Below, one piece after another: positions 6,138 through 26,322 of a stretch of 26,322 bases of DNA. The notes beneath the pieces are model-generated. The model did no database searches, was not told the origin of the DNA, and worked only from the letters and a program-made list of their open reading frames with translations. The stretch covers positions 1-26,322 of the IMG/VR virus record IMGVR_UViG_3300010149_000139; one strand, written 5' to 3'. Position 1 is the first letter of the stretch, and the number at the start of each line of letters is the position of its first letter. The translations under genes were made by a program, and so were the position numbers. Source of the stretch: a virus.

Positions 6138-8393
6138 ATGGCAAAAGAAGGAGTATTTTTTAAAAGACCTCTACCGTCACTTTCTAGTATTGACCCAGGA
6201 GTTAGAGAACAATTAGAAATTAGAGAAAAGCTTTATAGTAAGGAACTTGGGAATCTAGATCCAAATTTTCTTGCACACTACCTAAATGGTAATAATTCTT
6301 TTGTAAAACTAACTTCTGGCATTGAAGTTGAAGGAATTCCAAATGCTGCGCATAATAATATACTTTTAGGAGGAGTTTTATATAAAGGAGGAACTAAAAG
6401 AGCAGGTATAAGTTCGGATTCTTTTTTAGGGACAGATAAAAACGGTAATAGTGCAGCTTACAATTTTGCACAAGGTGTATCAGGAGATGTTGCGAATAAA
6501 GGAGCAGAAGGCTATGTTCCAATGCCGGGTATAATTTCTTTTGATGTAAAAAATAGAGGTAATAGTGGATTTACTAGAGAAGTTTCTATGCAAGTAAAAT
6601 GCTTTAGTTTAGAACAACTTTCTATTATTGAAAAACTTTATTTAAGACCAGGTTTTAAATGCTTAGTAGAATGGGGGCATGTAGTATATGCAACAGGAAC
6701 AGCAAATGAAATGTCTCCAGTATTTGGACCTCCTGAAACTATATTTTCTGATAAAGTACCCCAAAAAAATCAACTAGCAGAAGAAGCTATAAAAAAGAAA
6801 GCAGGAGGAGATGAGGAAGGGAATAACTTAGGTTTAATAGGAGATTCTGGACACAATTATGATTATATGATTGGACTGATCAAAAATTATAATTGGACTT
6901 ACGAAAGAGATGGGTATATAGTTGATATAGAACTATTAGGTAAGGGTGCTATATCTACTTTTTTAAAAGAAATGCATGGCGGCACAGAACATGATGATAG
7001 CCCTAAAGAAGAGGAAGGCGTTGAATTTATTGCTACGAACGAAAGTGCATTCGGAAATATATTAAAAAGAATATCACAAGCTGATACCAAAGGTAAACAA
7101 GATAATAAAGATAAGGATAGCATTGTAGAAGAATGCGACATGGGGAAGATTAATAAAAGCCTTAAGAACTATAAGAGTCAAATGGACGGAATAACTGAGC
7201 TTTTAAATACAGAAGGGGATAGTTACGAATTTAAAGTGTATAGGGCAGGATTTGCCGACGTTAATAGAGAAGCAGGAAATAAAAATTTTAATTTTATTAG
7301 TATGCGATTCTTATTAGGAATGGTAAATTACTTTTTTTTAGAAAGACCTGATTCATCAGATATAGTACCGGAAGGTAAGTTTAATACAACTCTTAAAGAA
7401 GATTTCTATCTAACTTACCCTGAACACTTCAGTATAGACCCTAATGTATGTTTACTACCTCAGCAGACTGGAAAATATGGACTAAAAACCGCTTCTATAC
7501 CAGGTACTAGAGATAAAGATAAAGGAGATATTATGGATATACAACTCTGTACTTCTTTTTTATATGAAAAATTTAAAGATATAACAGATAAAGGTAAAGG
7601 AACAGCAATTTCTAAGGATAAAAGCATTGGCGAGTATTTAAATACAGTGTTAGATAAGTTAACTGCTAGTTTAGGTAATATAAATGAATTTGTTCTATAT
7701 AATGACTTTTACCTTAAAAAAGAATTAGGACCTAGTAAAATCGTAGATTTACAAATTTTGCCAAGACCTGAAGGACAACCGGAAACATATAAAATGATAA
7801 TTCCGAAAGGTCCAAACTCTTTTGTAACAGAATTTCAATTTAATAGTGAACTTTCAAACTCTATGCTTAACCTTATAGTCAATCAAGCAATAGTTTCAGG
7901 TACGGACGCAGGTACAGCAACTACAACAGGTTTAGCTGCATTTAATACAGGAATAAAATCTAGGTTTACAACAGAACCGGATAATGAAGCAACTCAATAT
8001 GCTCAAAAAAGAGCAAAGAAAGCACAAGAGACCCAAGAGGCATTGGTAGATGAATTTACAAAAATCTTTGCAACTTTTAAATACGATGAAGAAGTAGTTG
8101 AAAAAGCTTATTCTAACGGTAGTGCATTAATAAGAAAAGAACTAAATGAATTTTTAAAAGATACAAAACCAAAAAGAGGGCATATCGGAGCAAAAGTAAC
8201 ACTCACTATGTTAGGTATCAGCGGATTAAAAGCTTTGCAATACTTTACTTTACCTGATGAAATACTACCTGCTTCTTATTCGGAAAATGGTATAAAAGTA
8301 GGATTTAGAATAGATAATGTTTCTCATGAAATAACAAATAACGTCTGGTATTCAACAATTGAAGCTAACGCAATGATATTATCACAAGGTTAA
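6138..8393 (+). CDS. Large baseplate-hub-like structural protein (751 aa)
   Basis: The N-terminal part contains LNGNNSFVKLTSGIEVEG (residues 49-66). It then has YVPMPGIISFDVKNRG (126-141), followed by a strand and SLEQLSIIEKLYLRPGFKCL (157-176) leading into VEWGH. This arrangement recurs in baseplate hub-type virion proteins of environmental T4-like phages. The middle is a long charged insertion with Lys/Asp/Glu stretches. The last 80 residues (LTMLGISGLKAL, then an LPDEILP turn and a V-x-H-x-I-x-NN-x-W strand) resemble the closing domain of hub proteins of the gp27/gpD kind. No lysozyme or metallopeptidase motif is visible, so a tail-lysin activity is not supported. It starts two bases after the LysM-like gene. 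Confidence 0.55.
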   Translation: MAKEGVFFKRPLPSLSSIDPGVREQLEIREKLYSKELGNLDPNFLAHYLNGNNSFVKLTSGIEVEGIPNAAHNNILLGGVLYKGGTKRAGISSDSFLGTDKNGNSAAYNFAQGVSGDVANKGAEGYVPMPGIISFDVKNRGNSGFTREVSMQVKCFSLEQLSIIEKLYLRPGFKCLVEWGHVVYATGTANEMSPVFGPPETIFSDKVPQKNQLAEEAIKKKAGGDEEGNNLGLIGDSGHNYDYMIGLIKNYNWTYERDGYIVDIELLGKGAISTFLKEMHGGTEHDDSPKEEEGVEFIATNESAFGNILKRISQADTKGKQDNKDKDSIVEECDMGKINKSLKNYKSQMDGITELLNTEGDSYEFKVYRAGFADVNREAGNKNFNFISMRFLLGMVNYFFLERPDSSDIVPEGKFNTTLKEDFYLTYPEHFSIDPNVCLLPQQTGKYGLKTASIPGTRDKDKGDIMDIQLCTSFLYEKFKDITDKGKGTAISKDKSIGEYLNTVLDKLTASLGNINEFVLYNDFYLKKELGPSKIVDLQILPRPEGQPETYKMIIPKGPNSFVTEFQFNSELSNSMLNLIVNQAIVSGTDAGTATTTGLAAFNTGIKSRFTTEPDNEATQYAQKRAKKAQETQEALVDEFTKIFATFKYDEEVVEKAYSNGSALIRKELNEFLKDTKPKRGHIGAKVTLTMLGISGLKALQYFTLPDEILPASYSENGIKVGFRIDNVSHEITNNVWYSTIEANAMILSQG

Positions 8394-18022: not shown

Positions 18023-18058
18023 TATTTATATTAAATGAGCTCAGTTTATATTAAATGA
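18023..18058 (+). promoter_or_regulatory. TATTTATA box and duplicated start region with a 7-codon leader ORF
   Basis: TTTATATTAAATGA occurs twice, exactly 20 bases apart (18025-18038 and 18045-18058). The second copy carries the ATG of the large surface-protein gene. The first provides an ATG at 18035 that opens a 7-codon ORF (MSSVYIK) whose TGA stop overlaps the real start as ATGA. A TATTTATA box (18023-18030) overlaps the first copy, and a GTTAT-AG-ATAAC inverted repeat (18011-18022) precedes it. This could be a promoter plus translational-coupling leader, or a recent 20-base duplication. Confidence 0.45.
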
Positions 18059-21000
18059 AGACAGTTAAAATAAAAAACCGGTCTATTGCCGCTGATATAA
18101 GTATTCTAAAAGTATATCATACATTTCTTGATAATAGTAACCTACTTACCACGGAAGCATCAGCTAGTGGAGTATTTACAGGTAAAGATTTATTTAATGG
18201 TATAGAGTTTCAAGTAGATGATGATGTAGATCAGTTTGTAATAGAAAATCTAGAACCAGCAGGCTGTGTTGGTGATGAATGTAACGTATGTACAAATATA
18301 GGCTCAGGTAGTATATCCGGAGAGTTTTCTTCTTCTAATTTTAGCTACTTTATACAACCAGGTAGATTCGGTACCGTAGAGTATAACGGTCAATATAATA
18401 GACTAATTTCAAGTTCTGATGATATTAATACTACTTTATTTACTCACAACCATTCAGTTTACGGTTCAGTTGAATTAACAGTAACACCTTCAGGTTCTTT
18501 TGAATTCGAAGGGTGGTACGATAATGTAGATAGAGTAGGAACTGCACTTTCAAATAACAGTACTGTAGTAATAACGCAAGATACAATAGATGGATTAGAT
18601 ATTCATTCAAATAATTGGTATGTAAAATATGAGAATAATGACCCTCTATTTAAATTAAATGCTATAGATGGAGAAAATATTACAACATTCACTACATCTT
18701 TAAATGAAAATAGTACCCCACATGAATTAGCTAAATTTTACTTTTCTGATATAGACGGAGATGCACTAACAGTCTCACTATCTCCAGATGCAGGAGGACA
18801 TTTTTCATTAACAACTAATTCAAATTATATATCACTTCAACAAGTTACATCATCTTTAGATTATGAAACTAAGACAGTATATAATATGTCAGTTAGTGTG
18901 AGTGATTCTGAAACCACTACATTGCTACCTATTACTGTAAATGTAATAGATAACCTACAACCTAATGTTGTTAATCAGACAATGCCTAATTTTGGGGAAA
19001 ATAATCCCGATGGTTTTTCTGCAGGAAATATAGCAACTACAGATCCGGAAGGTGATACCGTTACTTTATATAATATAACTTTACACGCTATTAAACTATC
19101 AGGTAAATCAATATCAGCATCCTTATATTCTGGATCAGGCTTTTCAGATCCAACCCCTGATGCTTTTGATATCTCACCTAGTGGAGCGATAACTAAGAAA
19201 AGCGGCGCTTTCCTTAATCATAGACTTATTAACGAATATGTTTACAAAGTTTTTGCGGATGATGATTATAATGACGGAACAGCATCCGCATTAATTACGA
19301 TACCTGTTATACCAGATGCTCAAACTGTTACCGTAACAGGAGATGGAGATAATGATGTGTATGTAGTAGAAACAGCACTTTCCGGATCTTCTGTATATGA
19401 CGATATTAGCGGAACTTCAGGTTCTATAGCTACATTTACTGCTAATATACCAGTTACATGGTCCGTAGATGTACCTCATAAGGTAAGCATAAATAACTCA
19501 GGAGAATTATCAGTTTCATCAGATATAAATAATAACTATAATGTAGGAGATACCTTTAGCGTATTAGTTACGGGTACAAGTAGTATTGGACGAACACATG
19601 ATATAGTAATTACGGTAAATATAACACAAGATCAAAGTCCGGCTACAATCACAGGTTTAGGAACATCTTCTTTTGCATATGTAATTGAATCAGCAGTAGA
19701 AGATGATTCTGTATATTTGAGTTCTAACGGATATTCAGGTACTGCATTAAAGTTTGAATCAGATCAAACACCTATAACTTGGTCTATTACACCGACTTCT
19801 AAATTAGAAATAGACTCTTCAGGATTTGTAACACTTGGATCAGACCTTTCAGGTTCTGCTTTCTTCCATCCACAAACTATTGCTAGTCAAGTAGTCGCAA
19901 CGAACCAGTTTGACGTTACTTCTTCTTTAGATTTTACATTGCAGATTACAGAAAATACTGCACCGGATATAATATTTAATAATCACGTTTCATCTTTTGA
20001 TACGAATTATGCAATAGCAAATAGAAGACTAGTTACAGCATCATTTAATGATGTGGAAGGAGATAGTATAAATCACGGTTCATTTACATTTACCGATACA
20101 TCAGGGCAATTAGATTATGTAAAAGCGGGAGATGTTTACTATATTTACGCACTAAATCCTCTATCAGCTAGTGCTTATTCTTTTGATATAGGAATTGCAG
20201 ATGAGCATGGATTCAGCCGAAATGAAGAAACACATACTATAAATGTAGGATTTGCACAAAATTATCCACCTACTATCACCTATAACAACCATACAGTAAA
20301 CTTATTTAGTAACTTAGCTGTTTCAGGTGCAACATTAGTAACTGCTTCAATAAGTGATACAGAAGGAGATCCAATAAACTATAGCTCTTTTACATTTATT
20401 GATCCATCAGGTGAATTAAATGCCGTTCAAGATAGTAGATCAGGCTACGAAGATATTTTCTATATACAAGCTAATCAAAATCTTACATCATTAGATTACG
20501 AGTTTACTGCTAGTGTTGCAGATAATCATGCTTTTGGAACATCAGATCATTCATTTACTTTACAAGGTTCCTCTACAGGTACATTGAGAAATAATAGCGT
20601 CTTTATAGTTGAAACAGGACTAACAGGCCTAGGATACGAAGCAACAAAAGGATTTGGATCAGGAGCATCAGCTTCATTAGATGTAATTTATTCTCCTAAC
20701 GTAGGAGGTCAGGTCGTACAAGCCTACACATCTACAAACCCAGCAGTACTTGTCGATAGCTTAGGTAATTTAACTTTAGGAGTAGATATGTCAACTACTA
20801 CATCCGGTTCAGGTGATACATATACTTCGGATATTACTTTTACAGACCAGTACGGTAATGTTGGGACAGGAGTTGTTGATGTAGAAGTTACTTACCCTAA
20901 TTCTGGTTCATACATAAGTTATTATGGTGTGCAGCCATCTAATGGTAAGGCATCAGGATTAGATGAAACCGGCGGTAACGGTACCGGTAGTTTAGAAATA

Positions 21001-23340
21001 AGAACTCAATACATAGAAGATGGTACTAATATAGCATTTGATTTTGCATCTTTAACCTCAGCAGCACTTAACCAGGATTTTACAGCATCAGATACTGAAT
21101 TTACAATAAATAATAACTCAGGTTCTATAACCATACTAGGTATTGGGGATATGCTTACAGAGGGAGCAGAAGTAATAACTGCATATTTAAAAGATTACAC
21201 AGGAGGAGTTGGAAATAATTTATATGATTCAAATGGTAATTTAATAACTAATAAATCAACTCATAACCCTTTTGATGATACAATCTCATTAAATATTTTT
21301 GATACAAGTAAAAGATACATAGGCTTAAGTCCCTCTCAAGGATCTGTAGCAGAAGGGCAATCAGTTACTTTTACATTACTAAGTCAAGGAGTTCCAAATG
21401 GTACAGAAGTTTTATTTAATATTGAATCAGGATCATCTGGTCAAGTTGATGCAAATGATTTTACTTTATCTTCGGATAGATTTGTAATGAACAACAATAC
21501 AGGTTCAGTAGATATTTCTATCAATACAGATGCTCTTGCTGAATCTAATGAGACATTAGGATTGCAGTTAGAACTATATGATTCGGAGAATAAGCTTACA
21601 GGTCAACTTTATAATCTTGTTACAGTACAAAATACAGATACAGATGCACCTACTATTACGATAACAGGCAATAATCCACATACACATGAAGTTAAAGGTA
21701 CCTACACTGATGCAGGAGCTACAGCAAGTGATACAGTTGATGGGAATCTTACTACTTCTATAGTTGTTACAAATAATGTTAATGATCAAGTATCAGGTTC
21801 ATACACAGTTGTCTACGATGTAAGTGATTCTGCAGGTAATACAGCACAAGCAACTCGAACAGTAAACGTAGTTGATACATCACCACCGGTGATAACTCTA
21901 ATAGGTACTTCATCTATTCAAGTATACCAAGGACAGACTTACACCGATGCAGGAGCAACAGCACAAGATGCATATGAAGGAAATATCACTTCAGATATAG
22001 TAACAACAAATCCAGTAAATACATCTAATTTAGGAACTTACCTGGTAAGGTATAATGTTGATGATGCATCTGGTAATTCAGCTACAGAAGTAACTAGAAC
22101 AGTAAACGTAGTTGTTAATAACATACCAATCATAAGTGGAAATCAACAAGACTATACAATAGAAGTTGGGAGCACTTTTGGTAGTGCAGAAGCATTAGAA
22201 GGTGTTTCAGCATCAGATACAGAAGATGGAAATATAACAGCAGACATAGTACTTACTAACCCAGTAAATACAGCAGTAGTTGGTACTTATACAGTTAGGT
22301 ATAATGTTGATGACTCATCAGGAAATTCAGCAGTAGAGAAAACTACTACGGTATATGTTGTGGATACCACTGCACCTGTCATTACTATGGTAGGTTCTTC
22401 ATCTATAGACATAAATGTAGGTGCTACATATACCGATGCAGGAGCAACCGCATTAGATAATTATGACGGTAATATTACTGGAAACATAACCACAACAAAC
22501 AGTGTTAATACATCTATAGCAGGGTCCTACACAGTTAAATATAACGTATCTGACTCAGAAGGTAATGCAGCAACCGAAGTTGTAAGAACAGTAAACGTAA
22601 TTGCCGGACCAAGAGAGTTTAGTTATGGGTTATCTAACTATAGAATAGATTTTGAGTTTATAGCTTCAGAAAATGACGGTAATGACAGATATCATACTGT
22701 AGAAAAAGATTCCATTTCCGGTCAAGGAACATACAGTCCTAACATCGGAGGTGATGAGACTTGGTCTCCAGTTAATCCAGTAGAGAACACTAGACATCAA
22801 GGCCTGCATAACATTAAAAAGGAATCTAATAAAGGTGTATTTGATGGGTATTATACTTGGCATCAACTATCAGGAAGTAAAGGTGGTGAGGAAGGACGTA
22901 ATAACGATTTAACCGGAGGAGCTAGATCAAAAGATTTAGCACACTCTATTACATATAGTTCTGATATAGATAACAACCCAGGTGGTGTATATAGCTTCGA
23001 CTACCAATCTACAACAAAATTAGACATAACAGTGTCTTATGAAGTAGATACAACTGCTAGTTTAGATATAGTATTTGGAGTAGCAATATGGAATGAGAAT
23101 TCATCAGGGTACCCTCCAGAAGAACTAACTAATCAATGGACCATTTATAAAAGTTATGGAAATTATTTAAATGCTCAAGGCGTTGAAACATCAACACCCG
23201 GTAGTTATGCGGTAAGTGGTATTGGAGATGAAGTAGCTGTATTCGGAACTAATAGTCCAAAGATTTGGGTTAAACCTGTAGTAGGATTTTTCGATCCATC
23301 AGGAAGCGCCGGAGGAGAAGGCGGCGGAGATCCAACATAA
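18055..23340 (+). CDS. Giant Ig/cadherin-like repeat surface protein (1761 aa)
   Basis: The protein is nearly all beta-rich and Ser/Thr/Asn/Asp-rich, with very few Cys (a CVGDECNVC cluster near residue 72). There is no signal peptide, fitting a virion protein rather than a secreted host protein. Visible modules in order: a unique N-terminal domain (1-200); cadherin-like repeats with DIDGD and DPEGD acidic motifs (about 200-420); three copies of a module beginning VYVVETAL, AYVIESAV and VFIVETGL, with two EGD-containing repeats between the second and third; two Calx-beta-like domains (about 960-1195); four DUF5011-type Ig domains (1197-1516); and a unique C-terminal domain with a Gly-rich end (SAGGEGGG). 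Such proteins bind cell-surface glycans or decorate capsids and tails, often with calcium. It lies between nrdA and thioredoxin, away from the tail module. Receptor binding or capsid decoration is inferred. Confidence 0.75.
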   Translation: MKTVKIKNRSIAADISILKVYHTFLDNSNLLTTEASASGVFTGKDLFNGIEFQVDDDVDQFVIENLEPAGCVGDECNVCTNIGSGSISGEFSSSNFSYFIQPGRFGTVEYNGQYNRLISSSDDINTTLFTHNHSVYGSVELTVTPSGSFEFEGWYDNVDRVGTALSNNSTVVITQDTIDGLDIHSNNWYVKYENNDPLFKLNAIDGENITTFTTSLNENSTPHELAKFYFSDIDGDALTVSLSPDAGGHFSLTTNSNYISLQQVTSSLDYETKTVYNMSVSVSDSETTTLLPITVNVIDNLQPNVVNQTMPNFGENNPDGFSAGNIATTDPEGDTVTLYNITLHAIKLSGKSISASLYSGSGFSDPTPDAFDISPSGAITKKSGAFLNHRLINEYVYKVFADDDYNDGTASALITIPVIPDAQTVTVTGDGDNDVYVVETALSGSSVYDDISGTSGSIATFTANIPVTWSVDVPHKVSINNSGELSVSSDINNNYNVGDTFSVLVTGTSSIGRTHDIVITVNITQDQSPATITGLGTSSFAYVIESAVEDDSVYLSSNGYSGTALKFESDQTPITWSITPTSKLEIDSSGFVTLGSDLSGSAFFHPQTIASQVVATNQFDVTSSLDFTLQITENTAPDIIFNNHVSSFDTNYAIANRRLVTASFNDVEGDSINHGSFTFTDTSGQLDYVKAGDVYYIYALNPLSASAYSFDIGIADEHGFSRNEETHTINVGFAQNYPPTITYNNHTVNLFSNLAVSGATLVTASISDTEGDPINYSSFTFIDPSGELNAVQDSRSGYEDIFYIQANQNLTSLDYEFTASVADNHAFGTSDHSFTLQGSSTGTLRNNSVFIVETGLTGLGYEATKGFGSGASASLDVIYSPNVGGQVVQAYTSTNPAVLVDSLGNLTLGVDMSTTTSGSGDTYTSDITFTDQYGNVGTGVVDVEVTYPNSGSYISYYGVQPSNGKASGLDETGGNGTGSLEIRTQYIEDGTNIAFDFASLTSAALNQDFTASDTEFTINNNSGSITILGIGDMLTEGAEVITAYLKDYTGGVGNNLYDSNGNLITNKSTHNPFDDTISLNIFDTSKRYIGLSPSQGSVAEGQSVTFTLLSQGVPNGTEVLFNIESGSSGQVDANDFTLSSDRFVMNNNTGSVDISINTDALAESNETLGLQLELYDSENKLTGQLYNLVTVQNTDTDAPTITITGNNPHTHEVKGTYTDAGATASDTVDGNLTTSIVVTNNVNDQVSGSYTVVYDVSDSAGNTAQATRTVNVVDTSPPVITLIGTSSIQVYQGQTYTDAGATAQDAYEGNITSDIVTTNPVNTSNLGTYLVRYNVDDASGNSATEVTRTVNVVVNNIPIISGNQQDYTIEVGSTFGSAEALEGVSASDTEDGNITADIVLTNPVNTAVVGTYTVRYNVDDSSGNSAVEKTTTVYVVDTTAPVITMVGSSSIDINVGATYTDAGATALDNYDGNITGNITTTNSVNTSIAGSYTVKYNVSDSEGNAATEVVRTVNVIAGPREFSYGLSNYRIDFEFIASENDGNDRYHTVEKDSISGQGTYSPNIGGDETWSPVNPVENTRHQGLHNIKKESNKGVFDGYYTWHQLSGSKGGEEGRNNDLTGGARSKDLAHSITYSSDIDNNPGGVYSFDYQSTTKLDITVSYEVDTTASLDIVFGVAIWNENSSGYPPEELTNQWTIYKSYGNYLNAQGVETSTPGSYAVSGIGDEVAVFGTNSPKIWVKPVVGFFDPSGSAGGEGGGDPT
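21643..22602 (+). repeat. Four tandem DUF5011-type Ig-like domains of about 80 residues
   Basis: Units start at residues 1197, 1277, 1358 and 1441 of the surface protein (bases 21643, 21883, 22126 and 22375). Each has the pattern APVIT-like strand, a (Y/F)TDAGATA-type or related acidic segment, D-G-N-(I/L)-T, TNPVNT-like turn, G-(T/S)-Y-x-V-x-Y-x-V and D-x-(S/A)-GN, closing with a TVNVV-like strand. The third unit is the most divergent at its start. This pattern is typical of bacterial Ig-like DUF5011 modules in adhesins. Confidence 0.85.
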
Positions 23341-24144: not shown

Positions 24145-24990
24145 ATGGCACATTGTGTAGTAAGTTTAAGTGGTGGAATGGATAGTAGCACCCTATTGTT
24201 AAGAGCTATCGAAAAGTATGATTCTGTAACAGCTATATCTTTTGATTATGGTCAAAAACATAGAGTAGAGCTTGAAAGAGCTCAACAATTAGTTGATTAT
24301 ATCAATGAAAATTGCCCAGCAGATGAAAATTGTTTTAATGGATGTACAGTTAATTACCGTCAAATTAAATTAGATGGATTAGTAGATTTACTAGATTCAG
24401 CTTTAGTAGAAGGTGGAGATGATGTACCAGAAGGGCATTATGAGCAAGAGAATATGAAAGAAACTGTTGTACCTAACAGAAATAAAATGTTTGCTTCTAT
24501 TACTCAAGCAGTAGCATTATCTGTAGCAAATAAAACAGAAGATGTTTGTGATATTGCTTTAGGTATTCATGCTGGTGATCATGCCGTTTATCCTGATTGT
24601 AGACAAGAATTTAGAGATGCAGATGATGCAGCTTTTAGAATGGGTAATTGGGATGCTGATAGAGTAGGTTACTTTACTCCTTATTTAGATACTGATAAGT
24701 TTGGTATATTACAAGATGGAGAAAAGTTATGTGAAGTATTAGGTATTGATTTTGATGAAGTTTATAGAAGAACAAATACTTCTTATAAACCAATTAAAGT
24801 TTATAGTAGACCAGAAACTAATGCATGGGAATGGTATAGCGACTATAAATCAGCTTCATCAGTAGAACGTATTGAGGCATTTATTAAGTTAGGAAGACCT
24901 GATCCTGTAGGATATGCAGACGAAACTGGAGTAGTTGGATACGAAATTGCTAGAAAACATGTTGAAAACGTACTTGCTGACTATGTATAG
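24145..24990 (+). CDS. queC: QueC-like 7-cyano-7-deazaguanine synthase lacking the C-terminal zinc cysteines (281 aa)
   Basis: The N-terminal ATP pyrophosphatase P-loop is clear: SLSGGMDSSTLL (residues 7-18), followed by SFDYGQKHRVEL (32-43). VVPNRNKMFASI (108-119) and YPDCRQEF (149-156) are further QueC hallmarks. QueC converts 7-carboxy-7-deazaguanine to preQ0 using ATP and ammonia, and phages use preQ0 derivatives to modify DNA or tRNA. In E. coli QueC four C-terminal cysteines (LTCYN and CGHCAAC) bind zinc. Here the matching segments read TNTSYK (210-215) and YSDYKSASSVERIEAF (231-246), and no cysteine follows Cys196. An unusual insertion at 57-67 holds Cys57, Cys63 and Cys67. The fold is confident; the exact reaction is less so. 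No queD, queE, folE or dpdA is in the window. The start has no Shine-Dalgarno sequence. Confidence 0.82.
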   Translation: MAHCVVSLSGGMDSSTLLLRAIEKYDSVTAISFDYGQKHRVELERAQQLVDYINENCPADENCFNGCTVNYRQIKLDGLVDLLDSALVEGGDDVPEGHYEQENMKETVVPNRNKMFASITQAVALSVANKTEDVCDIALGIHAGDHAVYPDCRQEFRDADDAAFRMGNWDADRVGYFTPYLDTDKFGILQDGEKLCEVLGIDFDEVYRRTNTSYKPIKVYSRPETNAWEWYSDYKSASSVERIEAFIKLGRPDPVGYADETGVVGYEIARKHVENVLADYV

Positions 24991-25166: not shown

Positions 25167-25277
25167 TGCCGAGTACCTCAGTAGGTAGAGGGTTCTGACT
25201 TAACCTTATGCATAATAATTCGATCGTTAAAAGCTAAAGGGTCAGAAAAGTCGGGGGTTCGAGTCCCCTCTCGGTTA
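25167..25277 (+). tRNA. tRNA-Pro(UGG)-like gene interrupted in the anticodon loop
   Basis: The tRNA parts read as follows. Acceptor TGCCGAG (25167-25173) faces CTCGGTT (25270-25276), with a U1-U72 mismatch and a G-U pair. TA fills positions 8-9. The D-arm is CCTC-AGTAGGTA-GAGG. The anticodon stem is TTCTG (25193-25197) with CAGAA (25243-25247). The variable loop is AAGTC, and the T-arm is GGGGG-TTCGAGT-CCCCT. The discriminator is A at 25277 and CCA is not encoded. The anticodon loop region is 45 bases instead of 7. Joining ACT to GGGT after removing 25201-25238 gives anticodon UGG with G37, as in tRNA-Pro, and the GTCGG-x-GGTTCGA body also resembles tRNA-Pro. Position 33 is then C instead of the near-universal U. 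It may be a spliced tRNA, a tRNA-like RNA or a decayed gene. Confidence 0.6.
25201..25238 (+). other. 38-nt insertion in the tRNA anticodon loop (candidate intron)
   Basis: The insertion would fall directly after U34, a position known for group I introns in other bacterial tRNAs, but at 38 bases it is far too short for a group I or II ribozyme. It is A/T-rich and contains the palindromes TTATGCATAA (25206-25215) and CGATCG (25221-25226). TTAAC (25200-25204) can pair with GTTAA (25226-25230), stacking directly on an extended 7-bp anticodon stem (25193-25199 with 25241-25247). The exact boundaries are ambiguous by one or two bases. Confidence 0.5.
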
Positions 25278-25282
25278 ACTAA

Positions 25283-25356
25283 GGGGAATTAGCTCAGCTG
25301 GCTAGAGCGCCTGCCTTGCACGCAGGAGGTCATCGGTTCGACTCCGATATTCTCCA
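25283..25356 (+). tRNA. tRNA-Ala(UGC)
   Basis: This is a complete cloverleaf. Acceptor GGGGAAT pairs with ATTCTCC with one G-U. The D-arm is GCTC-AGCTGGCTA-GAGC. The anticodon stem CCTGC/GCAGG encloses loop CTTGCAC with anticodon TGC. The variable loop is AGGTC, the T-arm is ATCGG-TTCGACT-CCGAT, and the discriminator is A. The 3' CCA is not encoded (CTA follows). It reads GCN alanine codons, which are abundant in the tape-measure gene. It begins five bases after the preceding tRNA-like gene, so both are probably on one transcript. Confidence 0.95.
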
Positions 25357-25403
25357 CTAAATTTTACTGATTAATAAATCACTACTAAATCAGATTATTT
25401 AGC

Positions 25404-25427: not shown

Positions 25428-26322
25428 ATGGCAGATTTCACCAGCAATAAGATTAATAAGACTTATCAACGGATCGTCCAAGTTGATAATGCAACATTAC
25501 AAGACGGATACGGAAGAATCTTATCAGGTTCTATGGCCGATCTTACAGTTAATGGCGTTCTTCAAGTAACAGGAAGTTTAAACGTAGATGGACCAGTAAC
25601 AGCTAGAAGATTTATAGCAACACAGGTTACATCCTCTATAATATATGAATCCGGTTCTACTAAGTACGGTGATACTCAAGACGATAACCACACATTTACA
25701 GGTAGTGTTTTAATCTCTGGTAGTGAAAATTTAGTAGGAGATTTAACAATAACAGGAAGTACATTTCAAGTCGGGAACACTACGCAAATAGGTAGCATAA
25801 ACCTTAGCGGGGATATTGATCAAACAGGTAATTACAGTTTAATTGGAAACATTGAACAAACCGGAAGTATAGAACTACTAGGAGATTCGGATCAAAAAGG
25901 AGATTATGATCTTGAAGGTGATTTTACACATACTGGGATTAATTCTCATGTAGGATTATATAAACATACAGGTGATACCGAACAAGTAGGGGCATTAAAA
26001 CAAACCGGAGATACTGAAAAAACAGGACGTACAGACCACACTGGACGGTTCAATAATATAGGTGATTTTGATTTAATAGGTGGCTTAAGACATACAGGAA
26101 ATCAAATACATGTAGGAAAAAGCACACAAGAAGGAGATTCAGCATTAATTGGGAAATCTAATATCACAGGTAGTTTAGTAACTTCAGGTTCTCTAACTTC
26201 CATTGGAGTAACAACATTATCCGGTGAAGTTGCAATTACAGGAAGTACAGACATACATATTTCCGGAAGCATTATTCAGGACGGTACTTTAATAAGAACA
26301 GGTAGTACTTCACAAACTGGTG
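25428..26322 (+). CDS. Fibre-like structural protein with hexapeptide repeats, 3' partial (at least 298 aa)
   Basis: The frame is open from the ATG to the window edge. The N-terminal 90 residues (with SNKINKTYQRIVQVDNA, RILSGSMADL and QVTSSIIYESGSTKYGD) resemble the attachment part of phage fibre or appendage proteins, where a YESGSTKFGD-like step followed by HTFTGSV is common. From residue 93 the protein consists of consecutive six-residue units with invariant Gly at position six (30 units), then a slightly longer unit and further hexapeptides to the edge. This suggests an elongated beta-solenoid or trimeric beta-helix shaft. There is no signal peptide and no cysteine in the visible part. 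It starts 71 bases after the tRNA genes. The likely role is a tail fibre, spike or whisker; the tip lies outside the window. Confidence 0.75.
   Translation, partial: MADFTSNKINKTYQRIVQVDNATLQDGYGRILSGSMADLTVNGVLQVTGSLNVDGPVTARRFIATQVTSSIIYESGSTKYGDTQDDNHTFTGSVLISGSENLVGDLTITGSTFQVGNTTQIGSINLSGDIDQTGNYSLIGNIEQTGSIELLGDSDQKGDYDLEGDFTHTGINSHVGLYKHTGDTEQVGALKQTGDTEKTGRTDHTGRFNNIGDFDLIGGLRHTGNQIHVGKSTQEGDSALIGKSNITGSLVTSGSLTSIGVTTLSGEVAITGSTDIHISGSIIQDGTLIRTGSTSQTG
25704..26243 (+). repeat. Thirty uninterrupted hexapeptide (18-bp) repeats with invariant Gly
   Basis: Thirty successive codon hexads each end in a glycine codon, without a single insertion or deletion. Examples are SVLISG, DLTITG, NIEQTG, DTEQVG, RTDHTG and SNITG-type units. 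Position five is mostly Thr, Ile, Val or Ser, and position one is often Ser, Asp or Asn. At DNA level this appears as an 18-base period with recurrent ACAGG(A/T) steps. After 26243 there is one eight-residue unit (STDIHISG) and then three more hexapeptides before the window ends. Confidence 0.93.

Follow-up and report, generated by a model that had tools for sequence, protein, structure and literature searches.

Phages carry tRNAs, and phage T4 makes stable RNAs beside its tRNAs. Among described bacterial RNAs, tmRNA continues a tRNA acceptor and T-arm module into a long helix on the anticodon side, and the YrlA RNAs (bacterial Y RNA-like RNAs) hold a tRNA-mimicking module in a non-decoding RNA. 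The element considered here occupies positions 25167–25277 (plus strand) of an IMG/VR virus fragment of 26,322 bases (IMGVR_UViG_3300010149_000139, the whole of which is referred to as the window), where it sits between queC and a tRNA-Ala gene. The original prediction, made from the letters of the window, was of a tRNA-Pro-like gene split by an insertion in its anticodon loop. Searches of IMG/VR returned 34 distinct full-length copies of the RNA, and its structure and origin are very probably those of a non-decoding RNA on a scaffold of the initiator-tRNA type. No description was found in the open-access literature (subscription papers and preprints being mostly outside reach) of a phage RNA that, as this one appears to, combines the body of an initiator tRNA with a folded domain in place of the decoding loop. 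The family, which occurs in viruses related to flavobacterial phages, is apparently undescribed so far.

The family shares with tmRNA the acceptor and T-arm module that runs into a long anticodon-side helix, but differs in having a full D arm, no recognised tag reading frame and no G3:U70; the Rfam tmRNA model matches the T arm only (model positions 346–363 of 374). It resembles YrlA in containing a tRNA-mimicking module inside a non-decoding RNA, but the layout is opposite: in the family, the ends of the tRNA are the ends of the RNA. A weak YrlA match covers the T arm together with the neighbouring tRNA-Ala. T4 species 1 RNA (rnaC) is a stable phage RNA of about 140 nt and unknown function (PMC9697503). 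It too adjoins tRNA genes and has a T arm and an acceptor-like 3′ end, but its 5′ half forms neither the D arm nor the extended anticodon arm of the family. Homology was rejected, the family model giving 13.5 bits across T arm and acceptor only. ARAGORN reads the 3′ part of rnaC (1409–1547 of locus L300; T4 70908–71046) as an intron-bearing tRNA-Leu.

Structure of the RNA and the question of an intron

The Rfam tRNA model RF00005 covers 25167–25277 end to end, with 40.6 bits (gathering threshold 29; E 1.7e-6) and an anticodon loop of 45 nt. This confirms the complete class I tRNA arms and the 45-base loop that had been described from the sequence. The family model R1 scores the window copy at 113.1 bits (E 8e-27), the copy belonging to the training set of that model. 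When the window copy is folded, the anticodon arm does not open at the supposed loop but continues as a 7-bp stem, capped by a hairpin. An extension of the anticodon stem by the insert had also been proposed, and the 33 further covarying copies indicate that it is not a product of chance.

The arms and the insert covary as one structure. The copies fall into two classes according to their apical domain. In an alignment of 29 class 1 copies, the acceptor, D, 7-bp anticodon, apical and T helices are all supported, with 94.1% of cells paired and double changes in 22 of the 35 pairs. Shuffles and slides of the alignment were used as pairing controls: the covariation score of 0.434 falls to 0.167 on shuffling and to 0.159 or less on sliding. 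RNAalifold, unaided, reaches the same structural core. The four class 2 copies give a similar picture (97.3% of cells paired; covariation 0.432, against 0.208 in shuffles).

The window copy is a short form of class 1, and all of its parts lie on the plus strand. The 5′ strand of the acceptor stem (25167–25173) faces a 3′ strand that ends in A73, with CCA not encoded (25270–25277); there is a U1.U72 mismatch and a G2.U71 wobble, and pairs 3–7 are formed. The D arm, CCUC-AGUAGGUA-GAGG (25176–25191), has the D loop of the flavobacterial initiator tRNA on an altered D stem (C11:G24). The 7-bp anticodon stem pairs positions 27–33 (25193–25199) with positions 37–43 (25241–25247), and is supported by covariation. 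It is followed by a UUAA bulge (25200–25203), common to both apical classes, and by apical stem B (25204–25207 with 25237–25240), which covaries in relatives and varies in length among copies. The apical domain itself (25210–25234) consists of a GC clamp (25210–25211 with 25233–25234) around a conserved core, AAUA (25214–25217) ... CGAUCG ... AAAAGC, with invariant columns. The self-complementary hexamer CGAUCG (25221–25226) is invariant in class 1 and is a candidate kissing loop. The class I variable loop AAGUC (25248–25252) and the T arm GGGGG-UUCGAGU-CCCCU (25253–25269) lie within the Rfam tRNA match.

ARAGORN detects 25167–25277 when introns are allowed and misses it when they are not. This would be expected if the locus were the decaying remnant of a tRNA gene that an insertion had disrupted, but compensatory changes are found across arms and insert in the 34 copies, the core is invariant, and the acceptor mismatches are conserved and almost confined to pairs 1 and 2. 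We regard decay as extremely improbable.

The question remains whether the insert could be a tiny intron, removed from the anticodon loop by an unfamiliar mechanism to give a working tRNA. Pair 32:38 is G-U in 25 copies, A-U in eight and C-G in one, and pair 33:37 is C-G in 33 copies, which have C at position 33, and U-G in one. Because both are always paired, there is no 7-nt loop as in a decoding tRNA. U33 is present in 114 of 115 ordinary tRNAs of the same loci, while in the standard register no excision yields U33 in 25 of 33 copies. The UGG anticodon of the supposed tRNA-Pro is one of eight possible excisions and would carry C33, so that this identity has been dropped. The main remaining support for splicing comes from counting 32:38 into the anticodon stem, which is then 6 bp long; the same loop CUUAA+GG, with anticodon UAA (Leu), is then obtained in 30 of 33 copies, but the other three break this reading. 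Most copies are read by ARAGORN as an intron-bearing tRNA-Leu, its anticodon guesses across copies including UAG, UAA, AAG, UAU, UUG, GAG and CAG. tRNA-Leu is expected to carry a long variable arm, which is absent here, and tRNA-Leu identity is thereby ruled out; in addition, N73 varies between A, G and T among copies and the 1:72 pair is open.

The presence of two unrelated inserts at the same position could also be taken as a sign of introns, but the apical domain is exchanged in one piece and pairs 32:38 and 33:37 are conserved. The inserts, of 36–69 nt, are shorter than known self-splicing introns. Archaeal and eukaryotic bulge-helix-bulge tRNA introns provide a closer likeness, being anticodon-loop inserts with a bulge beside a short helix. 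The family differs from them in its variable length of stem B, where the bulge-helix-bulge motif is fixed, in having no insert-free allele and no standard mature loop, and in occurring in a bacterial virus. An insert-free allele was seen in no viral locus examined, and relatives without the element miss the entire unit, never the insert alone. The closest contigs (L003–L006) keep the flanks and lack the whole unit, which is therefore gained or lost as one piece. A spliced tRNA is thus very unlikely, and the family RNA is probably not a broken or intron-split tRNA gene. Four possibilities had been offered at the outset; of these, the tRNA-like regulatory RNA fits, the broken gene does not, and the new mini-intron and the minimised intron are disfavoured.

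Relation to the initiator tRNA

The full family model was run on Flavobacteriaceae genomes. The best tRNA was the initiator tRNA-Met(CAU) in 27 of the 29 genomes with a match, and tRNA-Lys in the other two. Positions 8–26, UAGAGCAGUAGGUAGCUCG, are common to host and phage. Eight copies are the same as a host initiator at 41 of 41 positions (8–26 and 44–65), and thirteen agree at 40 or more. For the same eight copies, identity to the initiator is 14–21% in the acceptor stem and 0–30% in the anticodon stem. Such identity, limited to the elbow, shows which part of the initiator tRNA has been retained by the virus.

Bacterial initiator tRNA (tRNA-fMet) and the family therefore have in common the elbow, D arm, variable loop and T arm (in full in those eight copies), and also a weak or mismatched 1:72 pair. 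A11:U24 (D stem GAGC/GCTC) is present in 26 of 34 copies, the window copy not being one of them. The two differ in that the family has an unrelated acceptor sequence and a large structured anticodon arm, the CAU anticodon being absent with its loop replaced; the three GC pairs 29–31:39–41 (GGG:CCC) are found in none of the 34 copies. A weak or mismatched 1:72 pair and A11:U24 are among the determinants of initiator tRNA (PMC7949028, PMC4611024), and formyltransferase recognises both the open 1:72 pair and A11:U24 (PMC4611024). In the family, 24 of 34 copies have a mismatch at 1:72, nine have A-U and one has U.G, while none has G-C; G2:C71 is absent from all copies. There is a mismatch at pair 1 or 2 in 31 of 32 copies, compared to a fully paired acceptor stem in 98 of 115 ordinary tRNAs of the same loci. 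The U.U at 1:72 and G.U at 2:71 of the window copy, overlooked in the original prediction, thus proved to be a feature of the whole family. Similarly, 25 of 33 copies carry R11:Y24, compared with 11 of 134 other tRNAs. One locus (L292) also has a phage initiator tRNA-Met(CAU) with an A1.A72 mismatch (653–727), directly upstream of a class 2 element (728–864).

Some observations weigh against an initiator origin. The segment comparison was limited to 10 initiator and 10 other host tRNAs. A11:U24 is lost in the window copy and seven others, the window copy being a member of a branch with a changed D stem, and the window core matches the initiator at 30 of 41 positions and other tRNAs at 31 of 41. 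Taken by itself, the window copy is no closer to the initiator than to other tRNAs, so its initiator descent is argued from the family. For the family, the comparison of sequences indicates that the host initiator tRNA is the source, or else the model, of the elbow and D arm.

Apical domains and possible function

Class 1 exists in two forms, the short one seen in the window and a long one that carries an additional hairpin with ACGU in its loop. In class 2 there are two hairpins, the loops of which (UAAUUA and AUGCAU) are self-complementary; in one copy (L291), GUGCAC replaces AUGCAU and self-complementarity is kept. The flanks of one class 2 locus (L295) align with those of four class 1 loci (L299, L092, L113 and L142), and those of another (L290) align with two (L030 and L044), making these orthologous sites. 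L295 and L299 have the same body except for changes in the anticodon stem. The two classes are found at orthologous sites on the same body, and hence the apical domain has been exchanged on a constant scaffold, which constitutes a natural experiment.

Self-complementary loops in both classes suggest that the RNA possibly forms a kissing-loop dimer. By chance, a 6-nt palindrome is expected in roughly 5% of loops of 8 nt and in 22% of those of 21 nt, and dimerisation is therefore a lead and not a finding. The sequences behind the idea are also few, with no variation in the class 1 palindrome and a single compensated change in that of class 2 (AUGCAU to GUGCAC).

The best explanation of these features, and one that we hold to be reasonably probable, is a phage-specific, processed, unspliced and non-decoding RNA, in which an initiator-tRNA scaffold presents an apical effector. 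The locus would be transcribed together with its neighbours, and RNase P and RNase Z would cut the RNA out as they do a tRNA, after which it would work unspliced. The open 1:72 pair may exclude it from EF-Tu binding and from elongation, and without CAU and the GC triplet it would be unable to start proteins. The scaffold would then offer the apical domain for contact with a partner, and the self-complementary loops might join two such RNAs in a dimer. A role as competitor or decoy toward something that handles initiator tRNA is proposed only tentatively. Slightly more doubtful is the proposal that an initiator-tRNA mimic with an exchangeable kissing-loop effector acts on the host initiation machinery or on a defence directed at initiator tRNA. 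If this were true, the RNA would be an effector open to study with a single transcript of 110–145 nt, and of a viral class not known in bacteria.

Two specific forms of this scaffold-and-effector explanation can be distinguished. In the first, the RNA would be a decoy or inhibitor of initiation itself, acting on formyltransferase, IF2 or the ribosomal P site and stopping or redirecting host initiation. The family shares its elbow, D arm and open 1:72 pair with the initiator tRNA, and the open pair and A11:U24 are what formyltransferase reads (PMC4611024), but A11:U24 is lost in 8 of 34 copies, G2:C71 is found in no copy, and the GC triplet and CAU, on which P-site use and MetRS depend, are lost. 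The long arm would also be unlikely to fit the P site. We consider this form unlikely. In the second, the RNA would act as a decoy for a VapC-type nuclease or toxin of host defence whose target is initiator tRNA. Enteric VapC toxins cleave initiator tRNA between A38 and C39, as cited in PMC4105405, and phage tRNAs have been proposed as a counter to such tRNases (PMC10264068); the alternation of apical classes is what an arms race might produce. However, the anticodon loop, which is the cut site of the toxin, is absent, and binding may be lost with it. A general competitor or decoy is therefore ranked above VapC in particular, and the VapC form is slightly less likely still than the first.

Distribution and genomic context

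Within the collections searched, the element is found only in virus contigs, with one copy per record in all 24 element-bearing records examined. Eighty loci around relatives of queC gave five more copies beside queC, and a search with a pattern from the insert core gave many more. A 3′ pattern without CGATCG recovered these copies again, with a single unrelated locus in addition, so that conservation of the core was not produced by the search. Use of a 5′ pattern brought in L299 as well as four copies whose apical domain differs. No copy was found with the arm model in a sample of 397 Flavobacteriaceae genomes, or with the pattern search in a sample of 396 genomes of the order, neither sample including a positive control genome. 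BLAST against cultured phages and plasmids gave tRNA-arm or chance matches only, and Rfam models beyond tRNA gave nothing credible. The core pattern in genome contigs gave no element among the matches listed (L217 has a chance T-loop-like motif). To test for mimicry of a host RNA, the core 14-mer was also searched for in five Bacteroidota genomes, with scattered matches only.

The family accounts for a class of tRNA calls in phage annotation that are missed or reported as intron-containing. Two intron tRNAs reported by ARAGORN, at L073 7803–7928 and L043 11806–11950, are not family members. ARAGORN calls the former, a tRNA-like stretch without relation to the family, a tRNA-Cys with a 32-nt intron.

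The window copy is flanked upstream by queC (24145–24990, plus strand; Pfam QueC, 127 bits) and downstream by an ordinary tRNA-Ala(UGC) (25283–25357, plus strand; found by ARAGORN, and 69.4 bits with the Rfam tRNA model), which is a neighbour only. Thirty loci found without using queC, plus the window itself, were examined for such neighbours. QueC, QueD or QueE lies within 3 kb in 15 of the 31, and the remaining loci have other neighbours. A regulatory connection to queC was set aside because half of the copies are located elsewhere, and the family RNA is not tied to one gene. The phage cluster of QueC, QueD and QueE (24145–24990 in the window; also L102, L107, L126, L152 and others) adjoins phrog_19058, a neighbour with a weak DUF6610 match that may belong to a 7-deazaguanine pathway.

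The nearest cultured relative of the window is the Flavobacterium phage immuto group, as judged from the helicase (76%) and queC. Flavobacterium phage immuto itself (L008) has an annotated 86-nt tRNA-Cys at 6688–6773 that is unreported by ARAGORN and is possibly another unusual tRNA-like RNA. Elsewhere in the window, 18055–23340 encodes a protein of 1761 amino acids with repeated Ig-like surface domains, likely an adhesin or tail fibre, and a repetitive tail-fibre-like reading frame at 25428–26322 continues past the end of the window.
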